Source: Arthrobacter sp. S41 (GTDB lineage Bacteria > Actinomycetota > Actinomycetes > Actinomycetales > Micrococcaceae). Taken from it: a stretch of DNA of 64,000 nt. The DNA is taken from positions 1,178,001 through 1,242,000 of the forward strand of contig NZ_SIHY01000001.1 of NCBI RefSeq assembly GCF_004320535.1, given 5' to 3'. The notes below the pieces were generated by a model. The model made no database searches and was not told the origin of the DNA. It saw only the letters and a list, made by a program, of their open reading frames with translations. Within the stretch, counting starts at the first letter, position 1. The number at the start of each line of letters is the position of its first letter. Made by a program: the position numbers and the translations under genes. Below are positions 28,873 through 41,699 of this stretch, piece after piece.

Positions 28873-29487
28873 ATGACTGCCGATGCTTCGAAGAACCGAG
28901 ACGTAGAGAAGAAAGCTGTCCGCACCAAAATTCGGGCCGCTCGACAAGCTTTGGATCCTGCGACCCGGGAGGATCATGGCAAGCAGTTGGCAGCTACGGT
29001 CCTCGGCTATCTCACGCAGAGCACCGGCATCGTTCGAAAGGTCGCAGCTTACTGCTCCTCCCCCGGTGAGCCGGACACTTCAGTCTTATTAGATGCCTTG
29101 GTCAATGAGGGCATTGAAGTTTATCTGCCCATTTGTGAACCAGACTTCGCGTTATCTTGGGCTGCATACTCCCCGGGCATCGAGTTCCTACCTAGCGCTC
29201 AAGCACCTGTTCTGGAACCGGTGGGGCCACGCTTTGCCAATGACATCTTTGATGACATCAACACCATCATCATTCCGGCATTGGCCATTGACGCTCAAGG
29301 ACGTCGCCTTGGCCAGGGCGGTGGTTACTACGACCGGTTCCTGCCGTTGATCGAGGATTCACCGGTGCGTGTGGCTGCTGTGGTTTACGACAGCGAATTT
29401 GTTGACGAAGATGCCTTCCCTGTAGCTGAGCATGATCAGCCGGTGGATCTAGTTTTCACTCCTACGCAGGTGCATCAGATCCCGTAA
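28873..29487 (+). CDS. 5-formyltetrahydrofolate cyclo-ligase
   Basis: A 204-residue 5-FTHF cyclo-ligase (methenyltetrahydrofolate synthetase), converting 5-formyl-THF to 5,10-methenyl-THF with ATP. The N-terminal KKAVRTKIRAARQALDPATR, VYLPICEPDFALSWAAY and the glycine-rich GQGGGYYDRFL folate/ATP loop are diagnostic. The length is normal. No clear Shine-Dalgarno precedes the ATG. The SAF-domain gene follows about 85 bases later on the same strand. Confidence 0.94.
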   Translation: MTADASKNRDVEKKAVRTKIRAARQALDPATREDHGKQLAATVLGYLTQSTGIVRKVAAYCSSPGEPDTSVLLDALVNEGIEVYLPICEPDFALSWAAYSPGIEFLPSAQAPVLEPVGPRFANDIFDDINTIIIPALAIDAQGRRLGQGGGYYDRFLPLIEDSPVRVAAVVYDSEFVDEDAFPVAEHDQPVDLVFTPTQVHQIP

Positions 29488-29571
29488 AGGCAACAGGTCT
29501 GGATTACAGATTTACGCACAGTTCGTTTCCAATGCATCTGGGTATCAAAGACTCCACGCTTGCATTGGGGT

Positions 29572-30282
29572 ATGAGTTACTTCTCCAGAACTGTCACGGC
29601 GCCACGTCCTCCGGTCATACCTAAACCAAAAGTCCGCCCGGTGCGCACTCGTAGCGAACTCTTGCGTCGCTACCGCAAACCTTTAGCCATCGGGTTTGCA
29701 CTCTTGGCGTTGGCCGGCACACTCAATGTCTTTTCTTCAGGACAGCTCTCTCAACGTGAAGTTGTTGTTGTGTCCAGCGACATCGCTGCCGGCAGTGAAA
29801 TTTCGGCCAATCAGCTCACAGTGCAAACAGCACGATTAGACCCACAAGATAGCGAAGTCTTCGAGTCTGCTGACCGATTAGTTGGCCAGCGAGCCGCTGT
29901 GGGTTTGGATGCCGGAACGGTGGTGCGCAAGTATGCGTTGGTTGGGCCTCAGCTTCTTGCTGGGTCCATCGAGGGCACAGTGGCGGTACCTTTACGACTC
30001 AGTGATCCGGCGACAGTTTCGTTGCTTCATCCCGGTCAGATGGTGGACATTGTACTGACTACCGGGGATGGCTTTGACCAGGAAATTCAGTCACGGACCA
30101 TAGCCAAAGCTGTACCCGTTCTTTGGGTTCCGCAAAGTGCAACAAGTTCAGAATTTGGCATGCTCAACGGCGCCAGTGCAACGGGCGAAGGAATTATTGT
30201 GGTCGCTGCCGCCAGCAGTCTTTCTGATGATCTTTCCGGAGCGGTCTCTCGTGGCAAGGTCTCAGCGGTCTTAGTCAACTAG
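29572..30282 (+). CDS. SAF domain protein, CpaB/RcpC-like
   Basis: A protein of about 236 residues with a basic N-terminus, one membrane helix near 45-63 (IGFALLALAGTLNVFSS), and an extracytoplasmic SAF domain (REVVVVSSDIAAGSEISANQL, VGQRAAVGLDAGTVVRKYAL) followed by a CpaB/RcpC-type second part (HPGQMVDIVLTT). CpaB acts in Flp pilus assembly; no other pilus genes are near, so the role is uncertain. The start is doubtful: ATG 29572 has GGGG only one base upstream, and TTG 29560 lacks a site. Confidence 0.82.
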   Translation: MSYFSRTVTAPRPPVIPKPKVRPVRTRSELLRRYRKPLAIGFALLALAGTLNVFSSGQLSQREVVVVSSDIAAGSEISANQLTVQTARLDPQDSEVFESADRLVGQRAAVGLDAGTVVRKYALVGPQLLAGSIEGTVAVPLRLSDPATVSLLHPGQMVDIVLTTGDGFDQEIQSRTIAKAVPVLWVPQSATSSEFGMLNGASATGEGIIVVAAASSLSDDLSGAVSRGKVSAVLVN

Positions 30283-30289
30283 CTAAGGT

Positions 30290-30607
30290 TTAGCCCCAGT
30301 GTGGTGGCTTTTCGCGCTTCATGAGTTCAGCAAGATCTTCTTTGGAATCTCCCCAGCTACGCGGGTCCTGATCTTTGGCAACTAGATCTGCCAATGGATC
30401 GGTGGTGCGCTTGGACCGATTCGAAGTTGCTGGCGAGGAAGTTCCGTCAGCGGATTGACCCGTAGCTAGAGCACGGTCAACGGACGCTGAGCGCGGCACC
30501 GGTGTGTAACTTCCGGTGAGCTGAACACGCTGTTCAAGATGTTGTGATGGTGCGACAACGCGCGGTCGCTTACGGCGACCGCGCGTTGGTTCTTGCTCAG
30601 AAGTCAT
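30290..30607 (-). CDS. Small hydrophilic protein coupled to the helicase-like gene
   Basis: A 105-residue, Arg/Ser-rich, probably disordered protein of unknown function. The N-terminus RGRRKRPRVV is strongly basic and could bind nucleic acid; the C-terminus KEDLAELMKREKPPHWG is helix-forming. Its ATG overlaps the stop of the 1,414-residue helicase-like gene as TAATG, so the two are translated together and may work together. I know no named domain. Confidence 0.65.
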   Translation of the reverse strand: MTSEQEPTRGRRKRPRVVAPSQHLEQRVQLTGSYTPVPRSASVDRALATGQSADGTSSPATSNRSKRTTDPLADLVAKDQDPRSWGDSKEDLAELMKREKPPHWG

Positions 30608-33600
30608 TACTTCTTGGACTCCACCTGTTCGGCAGTCTCGCTGGCTGGAACCGGTGCCGGAGTGGTTGGCTCGGCTTCTGGTGCCACCTGCTCAGCTGGC
30701 GACTTAGCATCAGTTTCCTGTGCCTTGTTCTCACTCTTGTCTTCGCTCTTGGCCTCGACCTTAGCTTCAGCCTTCGGTTCCAACTTGGACTTAGCGGACT
30801 TAAGCAGCCCGCTCTTTTCCTTCGGCGCTTCGTCGGTGGTTACCTCACGGGCAGAGACCGGACGAGCGGCAGTCAGTGAACTGCGCGAGCTAGATTCCTT
30901 GGCTACTGCAGGAGTCGTAGGAGCCTTGAGCTGCAGGTAGGTAGCCAGACGTTCGGTGACTGATCCTGGATCGGTGAAGACGTCGATGGTCCACAGTGGG
31001 ACATAACGCCAACCGTGCTTCTCGAAGAATTCTGGGCGCAAGCGGCTACGCTCACGAACAGTGAGTTCCGCGTAGTGCTCGGTGCCGTCATAGACCACAG
31101 CAAGCGGACGGATGCCGCTTTCTGCCGCGTCAAAAACGTGAGCTGAAAGGTCAAGGACACCGCGGTAGTCCTCGGCAACAATCGCACCGCGTTCACGTAA
31201 ACGACGAGCCAAGTCAGAAACCAGCGGATCAAAGCGTGGGTTACGCATGGCGCTTACGCCCGAGTCCCCGGCCTGTACCCGACCGAACAGTTCAAAGAAC
31301 TGACGAGCGCCGCGGTACACGCGGTTCAGGTCAACGTCGTTGGGCAGCAAGCTGGAAACCAAGGTCATGCGGCTGCGCGAACGAGTCATCGCAGCAACAA
31401 AGAGCTGTTCTCCACCTTCGCGTGAGAGTGCACCAAATTCGTGCAGGATCTTACCGTGGGTGGTACGGCCGTAACCCCAAGCGAAGATTACCGCGTCACG
31501 GCGCAAGCCGATCAAACGATCCATGGTGGTCACCACGAATGGTTCCTGCTTTGAACGCAAGTAATCCATTGCGTACTTGTGGTTTGGTAGCTGCACTCGA
31601 ATTGCTTCAGCGATAGCTGCTGCATGGCTTCGGTTTGAGGCAATAACAGCCAAGGATTCTTCACCCTGGTTCTTGAAGTGCTCAAAGACCAAGTCAACAA
31701 TGCGGGCCACTTCAGCTGCCGTGGTCTGGACACCGTCTTCGCTGTTGACCAGCGAGCCGGTAGCGTCCGGAACATACTCACTACGCAACAGTGGCGAATT
31801 ACCACTGATGTTCACGGCCATTGGCAGACGTGAAATTGTTGAGTCGTAGTAGGTCGTGGACAGCTGCTCCACCAGACCTTCGTCGATCCCGCGGTAAACG
31901 GTGGACAACGAGCCTGAAACCAAAACCTTGTTCAATGCCGAGAGTGCAGAGACGTCCTGCTTGTGCTCAACAACGCGGGCGGTTGGATCCACGGAAACTT
32001 CAAAGCGCTTCGGGGCACCGAGCATTTCATCGCCAATGGCAATGACCTGACCGGAACGGCGAACGGCGTCAAGTACTTCACGCAAGGACAGGTAGTTGGC
32101 TTCGAGCAGGATGACTGCATCAAATTCTGCGTTTTCTGGCAGTGCGCTACCTAGCAGCAGTGGAGCCGAAACGATGACCGGAGTCAACGAGCTAGCAAGA
32201 GGAGCACCGAGTCGGAACAGCCCAGCGATAGTTGGGGTTCCGTCCTTGAGCATATTTCGCAGTGCGCGGGAACCGGCACGGTGGTCAGCTAGGGCAGCCT
32301 TCCAGTTACGCGACAGAGCCCAACGAATACGATCTGGTCCGGAAGCAATATGTGCACCGTCAGCCAGACGGTAATCTGCCTCGATCTTTTCCAGCTTGGA
32401 GCCATCGTTCATGGCCAGGAAGTCATCCCCGGAAATCATGGCATCCAGCACGGACTGCCACCAGGCAAGTTCCAGTTCGCTGTCTACGGCGTCCGTATCG
32501 ATTTCACGTTCGGCGAAGTCATCCAGCAGATCACCTAGACCAGCTTCGGTGAGCTGTTCGGAGATCAACGTGCGTTCTGGCAGTTCGCCCAAGTCTTCGC
32601 GGCGGTCAACCAATGCTGCAATAAGATCCAGCAACTCGGCAATCGGCATTTCGCGCAGGCGCGATCCAACGGAAGAAGGCAGCATGGTCGCAAGCTTATC
32701 GATGCGTGCACCAGCGTCGTGGTAGCCAGCTTCAACGTCCAACAGTCCACCTGGGACCTGTGGGTTGCGCTGGCTGGTGGCGATGGCGCGCCATGCATCA
32801 CGCTGGACAGAAACTGCCTGCAAGGCGGACTGCAGATCAGCGATGTGCATGCCCGGACGAACGTATTCCTTGGCAATCTTGCGCAGACGGGAACGGACAA
32901 TGGAGCCCATTTCCACGCCGTGCTCACGACGCCATGAGCTGGTCGCGGTAGCCGCGATCAAATCATCAATGTCGCCTTCAAAAATGTCTGATTCAAACTT
33001 ATCTAGCGAACCACGTACGGCCACCAGCAACTGCAGCTGGTCGCCCCACTTGTCGTAGCTGTCTTCCAGACGGATCTGTGACTGCTGAGCAATCTTCTCC
33101 ATGTGCTCATGAAGGATCGGCAGGTCGCGTCCCAAACCGCTGGCCAGGGACAAAGCCTGCTCTGTGGCTTCAGCGTTGCGCAGTGGAGCACCGTGCCATG
33201 GGCTGGTGGTGTGTTCCTTGGAGTAGGCGCCCAGCTGTGCCGCACGCTTAAGCTGTGCAGCTACGTGGCCGCGCTGACCCATGGAATCAAGCACCGAACG
33301 CTTCAGGCGCACCGTGGTGGAAGGCGCAGGTTCTAGAGCAGCTAGTCGAGCCAGCTCCTGCATCGCCTGGTATGGCGAGCAACCCCAACGGCTACGCACC
33401 GAATGCAACGACTTCACGTGTTCGTGCAAGGTGTGGCGGGAATCGCGCAGACGCTTGAACATCGTGCCCAGCTGCGGTTCGGTAGCCTGCTCATTGCGCA
33501 AAATAGCCTTGGTCAGCAAGGTGCGCAGGGAATCTGGATCCTCATTAGGTTCCAGCAAAAGGCTTCCGGCATCCAGCTTCTGATTAAACAGCTGAACAAA

Positions 33601-34851
33601 TTCTTCGGCGGCGGAGCGCTGTTCGGCAACAACCAGAACTCGCTTGCCCTGAGCCGCCAATAGTGCGGCAGCGTTCAGTGCGGTCTGGGTGGCACCGGTA
33701 CCGGCGGCAGCGTTAATTGCTACCGATTCTCCGGCGGAAATGTAGTCAAGCATTTTTGCTTGGGACTCATCAGCGTCCAGCAAGTACAACTCATCTTCTG
33801 GATCACGATCATCTGAAGACTTGGCCAGCGTGGTGTGGCCGGTGTGCACCTTGCGGGCCGAGGTTTCCTCGGTTGAGCTTGGCTGCTTGCGTGAGCGGGT
33901 GCTGTCCTTGAGGATATTGCGCACTCGGCCAAAGCGGGAGCCGGACTTTTCACCGTTGCCAGCTTCTTCAGTCTTGGACTCGTCAGCAGTAGTCGGCGTG
34001 GAAGCGGCAGCACTGTCGCCAGCAGTCTTGTCGGTGTCAGACTTGTTGATGGTGCCAGCAACGTTTGGCTTGGCAGCAACAAGTTTGGCTAGAGCTTCAG
34101 CTGTCTTGTTATCCGACGCGCTCTTAGCTTGCTTTTCGGATTCGTCATAACGGATCAGTGCTTCGATGACCGGGTGTGAGCCCGAAAGCTTTGCTGGATC
34201 AGCTGGGTCCATCAGTTCAGAGAAGGTGGAGAGCAACAGGCGGTGGCCTACAACAACGCCAGGAACCTCAGACATCTGCTGGCGCAGTGCATCCATGCCA
34301 CGAGCTGGATCAAAACGAGCGATGGAGTACGCAGCAGCATCAACGGCGTCGATATCTACCCGGGCTTCGTGGTCAGCTTCAAACTGACGGACAAAGGCAG
34401 GGGAAACGGTGGCGCGACCCACCAGCTGCAGGTCATAGTCATCAGCGTCTACGTGCTTAGTCAGCGTGATGCGGCCGAGCATAATTGGCGCCGATACTGG
34501 TTCGCTCTTACCGTCGTGGACTGCGCGCCAGTTGGCAACACCGGCGGCTAGGTAGCCGACATCGATGCCGCGCTCTTCCCATAGCTCATTGATCTTAGCG
34601 GCCAGGGCGCGCGCGGTACGGCGTGCGGTGGCGTACTGTTCTGCATCATGCAGCAGGGTGGACAGGCGCGTGCGCCGTCCGGCAAGAAATTGCGCCAGCC
34701 CCGAGGGGTTGGCGTGGGTGATATCGATGCTGTTGGACGTCGACGGAGCAAACCGCAAGGTGGTATCCGCACCAGCACTTTGTCCTAGGGATTTTACCCA
34801 GGTTGCTACCCGCTCGGAGGTAGCATTCTGTCCACTAGCCACGACAGTCAT
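30607..34851 (-). CDS. Large SF1 helicase-nuclease homologue with degenerate motifs
   Basis: About 1,414 residues. The central and C-terminal parts resemble DUF4011/AAA helicases: Walker A region NAAAGTGATQTALN (A387 where Lys is expected), motif II region DAVILLEANYLS (L916-E917 where DE is expected), IAIGDEMLGAPKRF, AWGYGRTTHGKILHEFG and the motif VI-like MTRSRSRMTL. A C-terminal REase_MTES_1575/Vsr-like segment reads GVLDLSAHV, VVYDGTEHY, and HGWRYVPLWTIDVF; the usual Glu before the CDG/YDG is Val. A low-complexity Lys/Glu/Ala tail follows. DNA-related scaffolding rather than ATP-driven unwinding is inferred. The start is uncertain: ATG 34851 has AAGGGA abutting; 34872 is the alternative. 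Confidence 0.8.
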   Translation of the reverse strand: MTVVASGQNATSERVATWVKSLGQSAGADTTLRFAPSTSNSIDITHANPSGLAQFLAGRRTRLSTLLHDAEQYATARRTARALAAKINELWEERGIDVGYLAAGVANWRAVHDGKSEPVSAPIMLGRITLTKHVDADDYDLQLVGRATVSPAFVRQFEADHEARVDIDAVDAAAYSIARFDPARGMDALRQQMSEVPGVVVGHRLLLSTFSELMDPADPAKLSGSHPVIEALIRYDESEKQAKSASDNKTAEALAKLVAAKPNVAGTINKSDTDKTAGDSAAASTPTTADESKTEEAGNGEKSGSRFGRVRNILKDSTRSRKQPSSTEETSARKVHTGHTTLAKSSDDRDPEDELYLLDADESQAKMLDYISAGESVAINAAAGTGATQTALNAAALLAAQGKRVLVVAEQRSAAEEFVQLFNQKLDAGSLLLEPNEDPDSLRTLLTKAILRNEQATEPQLGTMFKRLRDSRHTLHEHVKSLHSVRSRWGCSPYQAMQELARLAALEPAPSTTVRLKRSVLDSMGQRGHVAAQLKRAAQLGAYSKEHTTSPWHGAPLRNAEATEQALSLASGLGRDLPILHEHMEKIAQQSQIRLEDSYDKWGDQLQLLVAVRGSLDKFESDIFEGDIDDLIAATATSSWRREHGVEMGSIVRSRLRKIAKEYVRPGMHIADLQSALQAVSVQRDAWRAIATSQRNPQVPGGLLDVEAGYHDAGARIDKLATMLPSSVGSRLREMPIAELLDLIAALVDRREDLGELPERTLISEQLTEAGLGDLLDDFAEREIDTDAVDSELELAWWQSVLDAMISGDDFLAMNDGSKLEKIEADYRLADGAHIASGPDRIRWALSRNWKAALADHRAGSRALRNMLKDGTPTIAGLFRLGAPLASSLTPVIVSAPLLLGSALPENAEFDAVILLEANYLSLREVLDAVRRSGQVIAIGDEMLGAPKRFEVSVDPTARVVEHKQDVSALSALNKVLVSGSLSTVYRGIDEGLVEQLSTTYYDSTISRLPMAVNISGNSPLLRSEYVPDATGSLVNSEDGVQTTAAEVARIVDLVFEHFKNQGEESLAVIASNRSHAAAIAEAIRVQLPNHKYAMDYLRSKQEPFVVTTMDRLIGLRRDAVIFAWGYGRTTHGKILHEFGALSREGGEQLFVAAMTRSRSRMTLVSSLLPNDVDLNRVYRGARQFFELFGRVQAGDSGVSAMRNPRFDPLVSDLARRLRERGAIVAEDYRGVLDLSAHVFDAAESGIRPLAVVYDGTEHYAELTVRERSRLRPEFFEKHGWRYVPLWTIDVFTDPGSVTERLATYLQLKAPTTPAVAKESSSRSSLTAARPVSAREVTTDEAPKEKSGLLKSAKSKLEPKAEAKVEAKSEDKSENKAQETDAKSPAEQVAPEAEPTTPAPVPASETAEQVESKK

Positions 34852-35073: not shown

Positions 35074-36660
35074 TTACTCCCACTCGATGGTTCCAGGTGG
35101 CTTGGACGTGACGTCCAGCACCACTCGGTTAACCCCATCGACCTCATTGGTGATGCGGTTGGAGATCTTCGAGAGCAGATCATAAGGCAGGTGCGACCAG
35201 TCGGCGGTCATGGCATCCTCAGAGGAAACCGGACGCAGCACGATTGGGTGACCGTAGGTACGGTGATCGCCCTGTACGCCTACCGAGCGAACATCGGCAA
35301 GCAGTACTACTGGCATCTGCCATACTTCGTTGTCCAAGCCTGCAGCGGTCAGTTCGGCGCGAGCAATCGCGTCGGCCTTGCGCAGGATGGACAGGCGTTC
35401 TTCATTCACCGAACCAATGATGCGGATACCCAAGCCTGGGCCAGGGAATGGCTGACGGCCAACAATTTCCTCTGGCAAGCCGAGCTCGCGGCCCACGGCG
35501 CGTACTTCATCCTTGAACAGGGTGCGCAGTGGTTCAACGAGTTCAAACTGCAGGTCCTCTGGCAAGCCGCCCACGTTGTGGTGGCTCTTGATGTTGGAGG
35601 TACCTTCGCCGCCACCGGATTCCACGATGTCCGGGTACAGGGTGCCCTGAACCAGGAACTTCACCGGCTCACCTTCGGAAGCTGCTTCAGCGATGATCGC
35701 TGCTTCAGCTGCTTCGAAGGCACGGATGAATTCGCGGCCGATGATCTTGCGCTTGGTCTCTGGATCAGAGACACCTTCCAAAGCGGTCAAGAAGCGTTCG
35801 CGCTCATCAGCGATGTACAGCTTGGCGCCGGTGGAAGCAACAAAGTCCTTCTCCACCTGCTCGGCTTCGCCTTCGCGCAACAGACCGTGGTTGACGAATA
35901 CACAGGTGAGCTGGTCACCAATGGCACGCTGTACCAGGGCTGCGGCAACTGCGGAGTCTACGCCGCCGGACAGACCACAGATGGCCTTGCCGGTGCCGAC
36001 CTGAGCACGGATGCGCTCGATCTGCTCTTCAGCGATGTTATCCGCGGTCCAGTCCCCTGCCAGGCCGGCACCGTTGTACAGGAAGTTTTCCAGTACATCT
36101 TGGCCGAACTCGCAGTGCTTAACTTCTGGGTGCCACTGCACACCGTAGAGGCGCTTGGCCTCGTTGGCGAAAGCGGCAACTGGTGCACCGGCGGTGGTGG
36201 CCAGTACTTCGAAGCCTTCTGGAGCTACCGAGACAGCGTCACCGTGGCTCATCCATACGGTAGGGGCCTGTGCGGCGCCTGCCAGGATGGAGCGTGCTTC
36301 GCCCTCAAAGTTGGTGGGGGTACGGCCGTACTCACGCAGGCCGGTTTCCGCCACGGTTCCGCCCAGAGCGTTGGCCATGGCCTGGAAGCCATAACAAATG
36401 CCCAAGACCGGTACGCCGGCTTCAAACAGGTCGGCCCCTACAGAGGGGGCACCATCGGCGTAAACGCTGGAGGGACCACCGGAAAGGATGATCGCTGCAG
36501 GGTTCTTGGCCAAAATGGCTTCAGTAGAAAGGGTGTGCGGAACGATCTCCGAGTACACACGGGCCTCACGTACGCGGCGAGCGATAAGCTGCGCGTATTG
36601 GGCCCCGTAGTCGACGACCAGAACCGGCTTATGTTCTGGATTGAGGGGAGCAGTAGTCAC
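35074..36660 (-). CDS. guaA: GMP synthase (glutamine-hydrolysing)
   Basis: A 528-residue GuaA converting XMP to GMP with glutamine and ATP. The class I amidotransferase domain (about 1-200) has [15 protein letters not shown], nucleophile Cys in [16 protein letters not shown], and His/Glu in [11 protein letters not shown]. The ATP pyrophosphatase loop is [15 protein letters not shown], and the C-terminal dimerisation domain ends PPGTIEWE. All catalytic elements are intact. It is on the same strand as guaB3 and guaB further along the window. Confidence 0.98.
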
Positions 36661-39090: not shown

Positions 39091-41040
39091 CTACTTCTTG
39101 ATTTTCTTCGATGTACTCGTTTTCGAAACCGACTTATAACCCGACTTCGAACCGGTGACCGTCACCGAAATCTTCCGCCCGGCATCAGACTTAGCCAGCT
39201 TGTAAGTTGACTTCGTTGCGCCCTTGATCGAATCGCCGTTACGCTTCCACTGATACTTCAGCGATACGCCCGAAGGCGACCACTTACCAGCAGAAACCTT
39301 CAAAGTCTTACCGACTTTCCCAGTTCCGGAAATCTTCGGAACAGGAGTCGACGACAAACTCTGCAACGCCACCGACTTCGAATCACTCGTTTTCGAAACC
39401 GACTTATAACCCGACTTCGAACCGGTGACCGTCACCGAAATCTTCCGCCCGGCATCAGACTTAGCCAGCTTGTAAGTTGACTTCGTTGCGCCCTTGATCG
39501 AATCGCCGTTACGCTTCCACTGATACTTCAGCGATACGCCCGAAGGCGACCACTTACCAGCAGAAACCTTCAAAGTCTTACCGACTTTCCCAGTTCCGGT
39601 AATCTTCGGAACAGGAGTCGACGACAAACTCTGCAACGCCACCGACTTCGAATCACTCGTCTTCGAAACCGACTCAAAACCGGACTTGGAACCAGTGACC
39701 GTCACCGAAATCTTCTGACCAGCATCAGCAGAAACCAACTGATACGAAACACCAGTCGCACCCTGAATCGACTCACCATTACGGTTCCACTGATACTTCA
39801 GTGATACGCCCGAAGGGGTCCATGCACCGGCATTCGCAGACAAACTCGAACCCACCGCAGCAGTACCAGAAATCTTCGGAACAGGAGTCGACGACAAACT
39901 CTGCAACGCCACCGACTTCGAATCACTCGTCTTCGAAACCGACTCAAAACCGGACTTGGAACCAGTGACCGTCACCGAAATCTTCTGACCAGCATCAGCA
40001 GAAACCAACTGATACGAAACACCAGTCGCACCCTGAATCGACTCACCATTACGGTTCCACTGATACTTCAGTGATACGCCCGAAGGGGTCCATGCACCGG
40101 CATTCGCAGACAAACTCGAACCCACCGCAGCAGTACCAGAAATCGTCGGAACAGGGGCAACTAGGTCCTTCGGTTCCACCTGGTCGGACAAATTCACAGT
40201 TCCCAAAGTTCTAAAACCGCTGCCTCTGTTACCCAACGAATCATTCAATGGGTACAACGACACTTCCCAAGCACCAGGTGCAGAACCCTCAGGAATCGAA
40301 ACCTTACGTTCCCAAACGCCGTTCTTTGCGGTACCTGACACGAGGGTCATTTCGCCAAAGCCATAGCTTTGACCGGAATCATGCGAAACGCTCACAACCG
40401 GAGCATTAGCTTCCGTCGCATCCGTAACAGTAGCTCGGATAGTGATCTCGGCAGGTCCATCAGCCAAGTTGTGATTCAACGGCGAAACCGAAGAAGTAAC
40501 CAACACCGGAGCCGAAGTATCCGAAACCGAAGATTCGATGTTCACGGTTCCCAAAGTTCTAAAACCGCTGCCTCTGTTACCCAACGAATCATTCAATGGG
40601 TACAACGACACTTCCCAAGCACCAGGTGCAGAACCCTCAGGAATCGAAACCTTACGTTCCCAAACGCCGTTCTTTGCGGTACCTGACACGAGGGTCATTT
40701 CGCCAAAGCCATAGCTTTGACCGGAATCATGCGAAACGCTCACAACCGGAGCATTAGCTTCCGTCGCATCCGTAACAGTAGCTCGGATAGTGATCTCGGC
40801 AGGTCCATCAGCCAAGTTGTGATTCAACGGCGAAACCGAAGAAGTAACCAACACCGGAGCCGAAGTATCCGAAACCGAAAATACAACGGCAGCTACCGAA
40901 GCACCCGTGGCTGCCGTCCCCGAAGCAGCCAGCGATGGTGATGCGCCTGCGAACAGCGAGGCGGTCAGTGCGACTGCTATGGCACAAGCGCCGGTTGACT
41001 TGAGTCTTTTAATGGAAGACTCATTTCCAATTTGAGACAT
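39091..41040 (-). CDS. Secreted Ig-like repeat surface protein
   Basis: A 649-residue exported protein. The signal peptide (about 1-39; RLKSTGACAIAVALTASLFA, ending LAAS) follows the ATG at 41040, which has GGGGG four bases upstream. Two identical 116-residue modules (about 54-280, SDTSAPVLVTSSVSPLNHN onward) are followed by four 90-residue Ig-like modules of the type ISGTxxVGxxL, GVSLKYQW, DAGxKISVTVTGSKSG. The first two Ig modules form one subtype (NRNGESIQGATG), the last two another (KRNGDSIKGATK, Lys-rich). The end is basic SKKIKK with no LPxTG, so wall attachment would be non-covalent, if any. An adhesive or structural role is inferred. Confidence 0.85.
   Translation of the reverse strand: MSQIGNESSIKRLKSTGACAIAVALTASLFAGASPSLAASGTAATGASVAAVVFSVSDTSAPVLVTSSVSPLNHNLADGPAEITIRATVTDATEANAPVVSVSHDSGQSYGFGEMTLVSGTAKNGVWERKVSIPEGSAPGAWEVSLYPLNDSLGNRGSGFRTLGTVNIESSVSDTSAPVLVTSSVSPLNHNLADGPAEITIRATVTDATEANAPVVSVSHDSGQSYGFGEMTLVSGTAKNGVWERKVSIPEGSAPGAWEVSLYPLNDSLGNRGSGFRTLGTVNLSDQVEPKDLVAPVPTISGTAAVGSSLSANAGAWTPSGVSLKYQWNRNGESIQGATGVSYQLVSADAGQKISVTVTGSKSGFESVSKTSDSKSVALQSLSSTPVPKISGTAAVGSSLSANAGAWTPSGVSLKYQWNRNGESIQGATGVSYQLVSADAGQKISVTVTGSKSGFESVSKTSDSKSVALQSLSSTPVPKITGTGKVGKTLKVSAGKWSPSGVSLKYQWKRNGDSIKGATKSTYKLAKSDAGRKISVTVTGSKSGYKSVSKTSDSKSVALQSLSSTPVPKISGTGKVGKTLKVSAGKWSPSGVSLKYQWKRNGDSIKGATKSTYKLAKSDAGRKISVTVTGSKSGYKSVSKTSTSKKIKK
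39121..40160 (-). repeat. Four tandem 270-bp repeats
   Basis: Direct repeats begin at 39121, 39391, 39661 and 39931 (period 270 bases, 90 codons). Copies 1-2 and copies 3-4 (in plus coordinates) form two near-identical pairs. They encode the Ig-like modules and could change in number by recombination or replication slippage. Confidence 0.9.
40201..40879 (-). repeat. Two tandem 348-bp repeats
   Basis: The stretch 40201-40531 recurs at 40549-40879 (offset 348 bases, 116 codons). The encoded modules are identical, and no differing base was noticed, which points to recent duplication or gene conversion. Confidence 0.9.
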
Positions 41041-41699
41041 TGATCCCCCAAAGAATGCCTGACGAAGATTCCAGGCGAAAAGTGCGAGCGAAATTAGTAT
41101 CGCGATTGGTTCAGAGCGATACAATGAACCAAAAAAGTTATCGTTCAACTATTTGAAAGCATCTCATACTTCTAACGAGGGAGAAACTTTATCCTTAAAT
41201 GTTATCTTCGAAAAGACCGACATTTGAATTCATGGATAGAGCTGTACTTTCAAGAACACTGACCTTGAATCAAGATCCCTGTACATGGATTGGTTGGCCG
41301 GTGTATTGAGCCGACGAGGACAGCAGCTCTGCGGTCAGGATTTGAGGCCTGATCGCGCAGGTCGCTGATACCGAACCTCAAGAACCGGTTTCGAAAATTT
41401 GGGCTTCACCTGACAACCACCCACAGCCTAGATAACCCGTTACATCGAGGACTTCTCTGAATTTTCTAAAGTGCAATCCCGCTATCCGTGTGTTTGCTGA
41501 TGACAATGCCCACTACGTGAACAATAGAAAAGGGTTCGATGGAATGCATTGCTGCGAACTCTCCTCTCCTGAGTGAAGAATGCAGGTACCTCAGTACTGC
41601 TCACAGTCAGCAAATAAACAGCCTGTCGACCTAGGCCAGAGTTGAACAAATAGACCCTTGCACCCATCCGTTTGGTTCTGCGGGTTCAATTTGCGAAAA
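41041..41699. other. Gene-poor interval upstream of the surface-protein gene
   Basis: About 660 bases, AT-richer than the surroundings. It should hold the promoter of the minus-strand surface-protein gene near 41050-41200. No open frame with a ribosome site, RNA gene or mobile-element end was recognised. The 61-codon minus frame at 41482-41667 has no protein-like features. Confidence 0.4.

Follow-up and report, generated by a model that had tools for sequence, protein, structure and literature searches.

A candidate housekeeping pseudohelicase of Micrococcaceae and related actinomycetes, accompanied in trans or in cis by a PPHW-ending tail

The 64,000-nucleotide stretch of Arthrobacter sp. 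S41 analysed here (the window; contig NZ_SIHY01000001.1, positions 1,178,001 to 1,242,000) encodes, on its reverse strand at 30607..34851, a 1,414-residue homologue of the DUF4011-type superfamily 1 (SF1) helicases that has lost its ATPase motifs, and, immediately downstream, a coupled 105-residue protein (30290..30607, same strand) that ends in KREKPPHWG. We infer, with a probability of roughly 60%, that the larger protein is an ATP-independent housekeeping scaffold for nucleic acids, whose PPHW tail docks a partner. An earlier note on this DNA had recognised the degenerate helicase; to this the comparative sequence analysis adds relatives with intact motifs in other families of the order, apparent loss of catalysis on at least four occasions, and a conserved PPHW C-terminus on the small protein, which in other lineages forms part of the helicase.

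The compact architecture of the pseudohelicase is supported by an intact open reading frame, by domain matches and by a structure model. The N-terminal DUF4011 region (residues ~16-235; 34147..34806) matches PF13195 over residues 67-143 with 27.2 bits (Pfam cut-off 22.2), and is joined to the SF1 core by a low-complexity linker (residues 240-345; 33817..34134). Within the core, Walker A reads GTGATQT (residues 384-390; 33682..33702), with Ala387 replacing the lysine, and motif II reads LLEAN (residues 915-919; 32095..32109), where the intact relatives have FDEAS; motifs III and V are degraded as well, and the arginine of motif VI is retained. A helical insert carries an Arg-rich block (residues 621-680, ...SWRREHGVEMGSIVRSRLRKIAKEYVRPG...; 32812..32991). 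The C-terminal MTES_1575/Vsr-like nuclease fold (residues 1207-1306; 30934..31233) scores 28.7 bits, below the Pfam cut-off of 38.2, which is exceeded in all six of the relatives scanned. Here, residues 1251-1257 read AVVYDGT, such that Val1253 stands in place of the nuclease Glu, and Tyr occupies the His position (1260); Asp1255 and Arg1266, Arg1268 and Arg1270 are kept. The ATG of the 105-residue protein overlaps the pseudohelicase stop codon by a single base, the last of the latter.

The frame and the three substitutions to which the earlier note drew attention (Ala387, LLEAN and the Val before YDG) are all as it described. The loss of the lysine and the change in motif II are, moreover, fixed in the aligned rows of both genus and family, whereas the Glu-to-Val change is lineage-specific (23 of 80 rows of the named set defined below). 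The note had allowed that orthologues within the genus might prove intact, or that the true Walker A might lie elsewhere. Neither is supported: GTGATQT, LEAN and VVYDG are common to all 18 aligned rows of the genus, and no second P-loop of the form [GA]xxxxGK[ST] occurs anywhere in the protein sequence.

To follow these motifs further, homologous open reading frames at the compared loci were chosen by profile; the set of 57 aligned family rows and the named set (78-80 rows) share some loci, and are not independent samples. None of the 80 rows of the named set (79 named Micrococcaceae records and the window) has Lys at position 387, the P-loops being GTGQTQT (50 rows), GSGQTQT (18), GTGATQT (11) and GTGQSQT (one). 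The lysine is likewise missing from all 57 family rows, being replaced by Gln in 28 and by Ala in 20, and in every one of them Leu or Ile takes the place of the first acid of motif II. The motif III Gln and the motif V Gln/Glu are mostly gone where the lysine is gone; the motif VI Arg is kept in 57/57 family rows and in 52 of the 56 Lys-less rows from other families. The latter belong to a set of 69 compact homologues sampled outside the family, within the order and class, of which the remaining 13 (L116, L117, L119, L128, L132, L239-L245 and L247) possess intact GTGK[ST] and DEAS motifs. Nine long relatives (L141-L149; open frames of 1,579-2,433 residues, some cut by the end of the stretch) all have GTGKSQT and DEAS.

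A tree was calculated from 83 of the 135 aligned rows with the motif columns removed, using eight long rows as the outgroup. The intact L132 forms the first compact branch; one clade of 54 rows is entirely Lys-less; a second, of 15, comprises intact compact rows of two families together with four Lys-less members; and a third, of five, has Arg for Lys (GTGRSQT or GTGRTQT). The P-loop Lys and the DE of motif II agree in all 83 rows (20 with both, 63 with neither), and at least four changes are required. Counts alone are silent on loss versus gain; we read the changes as losses on the ground that L132 and the long relatives have intact motifs. In approximately unbiased (AU) tests, conducted on 33 rows with a simpler model, the placement of all 18 Lys-less rows in one group was rejected (p-AU 0.002), as was that of the 15 remaining when the Arg group was left aside (p-AU 0.0007). 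Judged from the alignments and the tree, therefore, the catalytic motifs have been lost jointly and on at least four separate occasions, a single loss being rejected on the 33 rows.

In the nuclease fold, the E-x-D signature is kept in 57 of the 80 rows of the named set, with Val in the other 23, and both Glu1253 and the His position vary across the rows, whereas Asp1255 is kept in 57/57 family rows and in 56/56 Lys-less rows of other families. The three arginines are similarly durable: Arg1266 is present in 57 of 57 family rows and 52 of 56 others, Arg1268 in 57 and 47, and Arg1270 in 56 and 53. Eleven of the 13 motor-intact compact rows already have Ala at the His position, and the weakening of the nuclease may thus have preceded the loss of the motor. 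L132 retains the His (YH), and no PPHW tail was seen nearby.

The second component of the module is the tail. Our strict pattern, a C-terminal PPH[WYHFA], was scanned for downstream of the helicase at loci with at least 700 bases of downstream sequence, which left out 15 of the 69 order and class loci, one of the 79 named loci and one of the nine long loci. It was found at 179 of 189 compact loci (57/57 family, 78/78 named Micrococcaceae and 44/54 order and class), and at none of eight long Hhe/ProA-type loci; controls on the opposite strand and inside the gene (a stretch of up to 960 bases) each gave 0/189. The pattern was written after the tails were known, and the counts consequently describe rather than predict; it was preferred to a lenient version because the latter gave 13 and 12 chance matches in the 189 controls. 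Of the 117 tails obtained from 126 loci, 108 have Trp directly after PPH and 103 have Leu, Met or Ile at position -5, the letters allowed before PPH being partly imposed by the strict pattern itself. In the window, the PPHWG-stop end (30290..30307) is the only occurrence of this exact DNA pattern, the one form searched for, in the whole genome. A basic N-terminal motif considered for the small protein matches in 53 of the 117 tails, in several of them within an out-of-frame leader, and we make no claim for it.

According to the sequences, the PPHW tail comes either from the small neighbouring gene (in trans) or from a fusion (in cis): under the strict pattern it is the helicase's own C-terminus at 12/57 family, 40/78 named and 8/54 order and class loci (the lenient pattern gives 11/69 for the last of these). 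On the tree (12 fused and 50 split rows), at least seven switches between the two states are needed. Repeated fusion of neighbouring genes is a classic sign of joint function. The ten loci missed by the strict pattern are L113, L129, L130, L132, L133, L137, L253, L266, L267 and L268; in L130, L137, L253 and L268 a PPHW peptide is present farther off or with a longer end, and L113 passes a looser end only. The PPHW peptide of L134, L136 and L137, which belong to a single family of the class (f38), lies at some distance, its end being 0.7-2.1 kb past the helicase stop.

The gene is widespread and constrained. It is matched in 18 of 18 genomes of the genus, two of the matches holding one in-frame stop each, and in each of the 149 genomes sampled across 32 genera of the family, only weakly in one (G088; 5.5e-8); its closest named relatives are mostly from Glutamicibacter, with identities of up to 92%, and Glutamicibacter is thus the probable genus of the window. 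A 26-row profile matches 244 of the 248 genomes sampled in the order and 40 of 197 in the class (E 1e-20), these counts being upper bounds for the compact family, as some of the matches are of the long Hhe/ProA type. The four genomes of the order without a match, namely G211 (62% complete), G310 (88%), G330 (76%) and G278 (95%, in 580 contigs), gave none on a repeat search either. Three reduced genomes, each at least 99% complete, namely G208 (0.8 Mb), G326 (0.9 Mb) and G348 (1.1 Mb), keep homologue frames of 1,205-1,289 residues that have no recognisable P-loop at the aligned place; downstream of each is a frame with LPPHF or LPPHW 9-14 residues before its end, as judged by a looser pattern lacking a dedicated control.

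The ratios of non-synonymous to synonymous substitution rates (dN/dS; Nei-Gojobori method) between the window gene and nine named close relatives are 0.016-0.123 for the helicase, 0.024-0.114 for the DUF4011 region, 0.013-0.075 for the nuclease fold and 0.2-0.9 for the linker, as against 0.022-0.102 for guaA; for the Arg-rich block they are 0-0.051 in eight of the nine pairs and undefined in one. As many dS values exceed 1, the ratios are rough, and it is the contrast between the parts of the protein that matters. In one genome of the genus (G005; L018/L019), the match falls in two pieces (2-246 and 293-1403) within a single open frame, i.e. the orthologue aligns minus some 45 linker residues, which is in line with a linker that is free to vary. 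Jensen-Shannon conservation over 43 family rows is highest, among the regions compared, for the Arg-rich block (0.67), on a par with Walker A (0.66) and higher than motif II (0.63), whereas in the 13 compact rows with intact motifs the block (0.64) trails Walker A (0.82) and motif II (0.77). Taken together, the comparisons indicate a gene under strong purifying selection that is core to, and vertically inherited within, the window's order (a GTDB-type grouping of the Micrococcaceae and relatives), and the maintenance without ATPase signatures proposed by the earlier note is upheld. The degraded motifs would also fit a former defence helicase in decay that persists by chance, but this is scarcely credible in the face of the low dN/dS, the 18/18 and 149/149 counts, and retention across the order and in reduced genomes.

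The structural models support the assignment of the fold. An AlphaFold2 model of residues 345-1320 (31 rows) has a mean predicted local distance difference test score (pLDDT) of 86.3 and a predicted template modelling score (pTM) of 0.71; a second, of residues 12-1195 (30 rows), has values of 79.4 and 0.64, with most of the linker disordered (pLDDT <50 at model 250-320). Residues 384-390 (model 40-46) lie between the core's first strand (33-36) and first helix (43-56), in the place of a P-loop. The top Foldseek matches in the PDB are Aquarius (in spliceosomes), Dna2, IGHMBP2, senataxin, UPF1 and Sen1, with query-length TM-scores of 0.18-0.31 that reflect inserts and extra domains, such that the match speaks on fold class only. 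On the evidence of the model, the protein is of the UPF1-like SF1B class, and the comparison with SF1 helicases that the earlier note recommended thus agrees with its assignment. UPF1, IGHMBP2, Dna2 and Aquarius are known as active enzymes, whereas the window protein unites a helicase fold with a conserved loss of the ATPase motifs. A sequence search of solved structures gave only two matches, both weak (E 0.13 and 0.64) and confined to the linker and the tail.

In the mechanism that we favour, the pseudohelicase would no longer hydrolyse ATP or cut nucleic acid; instead, DNA or RNA would be held jointly by the SF1 core, the helical insert with its Arg-rich block and the dead nuclease fold, and the flexible PPHW-ending tail would dock a partner, which might be a cellular machine or the pseudohelicase itself. 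Its role would be in housekeeping DNA or RNA maintenance rather than in defence. A broader formulation, to which we commit ourselves only tentatively and at somewhat less than even odds, is that this is a hitherto undescribed housekeeping module of the order, comprising an SF1 helicase-nuclease chassis and a PPHW short linear motif that moves between cis and trans, and that catalysis was lost at least four times because the real work is ATP-independent holding of nucleic acid together with recruitment through PPHW, which would matter enough to be retained even in genomes of 0.8 Mb. No description of a pseudohelicase and PPHW tail module was found in the literature searched, the coverage of which left most subscription papers outside.

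There are partial precedents for such a logic. PriA is a superfamily 2 helicase. That of Deinococcus radiodurans also lacks ATPase activity, having lost the corresponding motifs, and nevertheless binds DNA and contacts DnaB (PMC4504706); it is a different helicase from the window protein, with a known role in replication restart, and no tail peptide is mentioned in the paper's abstract. In RecC, a dead nuclease-like domain provides a hoop for single-stranded DNA (PMC1185551), and AddB (PMC4824097) similarly has helicase- or nuclease-like domains that serve in DNA handling without catalysis. RecC, however, works with a homologue, RecB, whereas in the 3.47-Mb genome of the window the pseudohelicase finds only itself at E 0.001 (13 of 13 candidates scored), a search that a partner without detectable homology would escape; a profile search of the same genome, in which two of six candidates were scored, likewise gave no second homologue.

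Several observations weigh against the favoured reading. Most family rows keep the G-x-G of the P-loop (51 of 57) and all of them the motif VI Arg, which would be compatible with ATP binding without hydrolysis, and the proposed binding of DNA or RNA is deduced solely from the fold and from Arg conservation. Most of the sampled class genomes (all but 40 of 197) have no match, and the function would therefore be dispensable outside some lineages. The tail was not found near L132, the earliest compact branch, or near L129, L133, L266 and L267. Finally, the Arg-rich block is not outstanding among the 56 Lys-less rows from other families (0.50, compared with 0.50 for Walker A and 0.56 for motif II), and the shift in conservation is thus clear for the window's family only.

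The first of these points leads to the possibility of an unorthodox ATPase or nucleotide switch, in which the site binds nucleotide and perhaps hydrolyses it slowly by means of substitute residues. The retained G-x-G and motif VI Arg, and the exchange of Lys for Arg in one lineage, would suit it; we nonetheless regard it as unlikely, given that the first acid of motif II has been replaced by Leu or Ile throughout the family, that the motif III and V residues have mostly gone too, that G-x-G is often lost in other families (Asp at 386 in 17 of 56 rows), and that a 0.8-Mb genome keeps a homologue with no recognisable P-loop at the aligned place.

A role in anti-phage defence, either as sensor or effector, is suggested by ancestry: the protein could be a chromosomally fixed descendant of Hhe or ProA that senses phage nucleic acid without ATP. 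It shares with Hhe, ProA and PDC-S37 the DUF4011 domain, an SF1 core with a helical insert and an MTES_1575-type nuclease, the last scoring below its Pfam cut-off in the window protein, and the homology is clear (NCBIfam ProA NF058533, 1.6e-84; Hhe NF042953, 1.1e-35; PADLOC PDC-S37, 2.8e-91); in addition, conflict-type domain fusions have been connected with an MTES_1575 protein in a survey of HEPN domains (PMC3710099). Its scores, however, fall far below the curated equivalog cut-offs (284.5 against 1500 bits for ProA, and 122.5 against 2000 for Hhe), three intact compact relatives reaching 777-869 bits against the former, and, unlike the nine long relatives of Hhe/ProA type, with their intact motifs and, at the eight loci scanned, lack of a PPHW tail, the window's family is compact, mostly ATPase-dead and PPHW-tailed. 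Nor is the gene mobile, patchy or tied to defence islands within the family: it is present in 149/149 genomes with conserved housekeeping synteny, which extends to one Actinomyces record (below), and is kept in genomes of 0.8-1.1 Mb, albeit with a patchy distribution across the class (40/197). A tblastn search for a phage or plasmid gene returned 336 plasmid records and one phage record with a match, and none of these covers 80% of the query. A defence role is accordingly improbable in our estimation, and of the scaffold and the defence sensor put forward in the earlier note, it is a catalysis-independent scaffold, as an inferred function, that we retain as the best reading. In Pseudomonas aeruginosa, a DUF4011 gene (PA14_RS11765) is a core flank of a defence hotspot in every isolate (PMC10250203), and a core member of the superfamily is therefore not unique to the window's order.

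It is also conceivable that the work is done by the tail peptide, with the dead helicase serving as a platform for its folding or delivery, for example in the presentation of an inhibitor or adaptor peptide. The PPHW end does outlive catalysis, occurs in both a cis and a trans form, and in its exact PPHWG-stop version is found only once in the genome; we give this idea little credence, as the helicase and insert are strongly constrained as well, and 10 of the 54 order and class loci lack the strict tail.

Repeated loss of the motor in a near-universal gene of the order provides a set of natural experiments on how a helicase fold can serve without ATP. Whether fused or separate, the PPHW tail offers a concrete handle on the partner, and the compact relatives with intact motifs (e.g. 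L117) are natural active controls for biochemistry. A saturated transposon sequencing data set exists for Schaalia odontolytica, a relative in the Actinomycetaceae (PMC12369343), and could show essentiality there if an orthologue is present.

With regard to the surroundings, guaA (35074..36660, reverse strand) lies upstream of, and outside, the module; among loci with enough sequence it does so at 37 of 40 family-set and 75 of 76 named Micrococcaceae loci, and at none of 22 loci of other families. The adjacency to which the earlier note gave weight is therefore specific to the family, and a functional link with guaA is rejected. On the convergent side are a SAF-domain (RcpC/CpaB-like) gene (29560..30282, forward strand) and a 5-formyltetrahydrofolate cyclo-ligase gene (28873..29487, forward strand), the former found at 25/38 family-set and 76/76 named Micrococcaceae loci, the latter at 38/38 and 76/76. 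Within the family, then, the helicase and tail sit in a housekeeping block. By the same rule, nine loci outside the family with 3 kb of downstream sequence have the SAF gene in three cases and the cyclo-ligase in none; a tblastn match to one or the other occurs at 13 of 29 loci outside the family. The block may be older on its downstream side.

In the Actinomyces oris record (L282; NZ_CP116225.1, 376049-388607), the helicase and a PPHW gene are followed by mscL, the SAF gene, the cyclo-ligase gene, glp and a GNAT gene. The pair is annotated as 'DNA helicase' and 'hypothetical protein'; read by eye, the P-loop of the former is GSDVAGT, without a lysine, and the small protein ends in RRDVPPHWG. 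Other homologues are probably annotated likewise. The record, 415 kb in length and the best plasmid match, is labelled as an Actinomyces oris plasmid, and may instead be part of a chromosome or a second replicon.

Elsewhere in the window, a 685-residue protein (39091-41148, reverse strand) is composed of near-identical repeat blocks (SDTSAPVLVTSS... and ...PVPKISGTAAVGSSL...), which suggests recent duplication or gene conversion.

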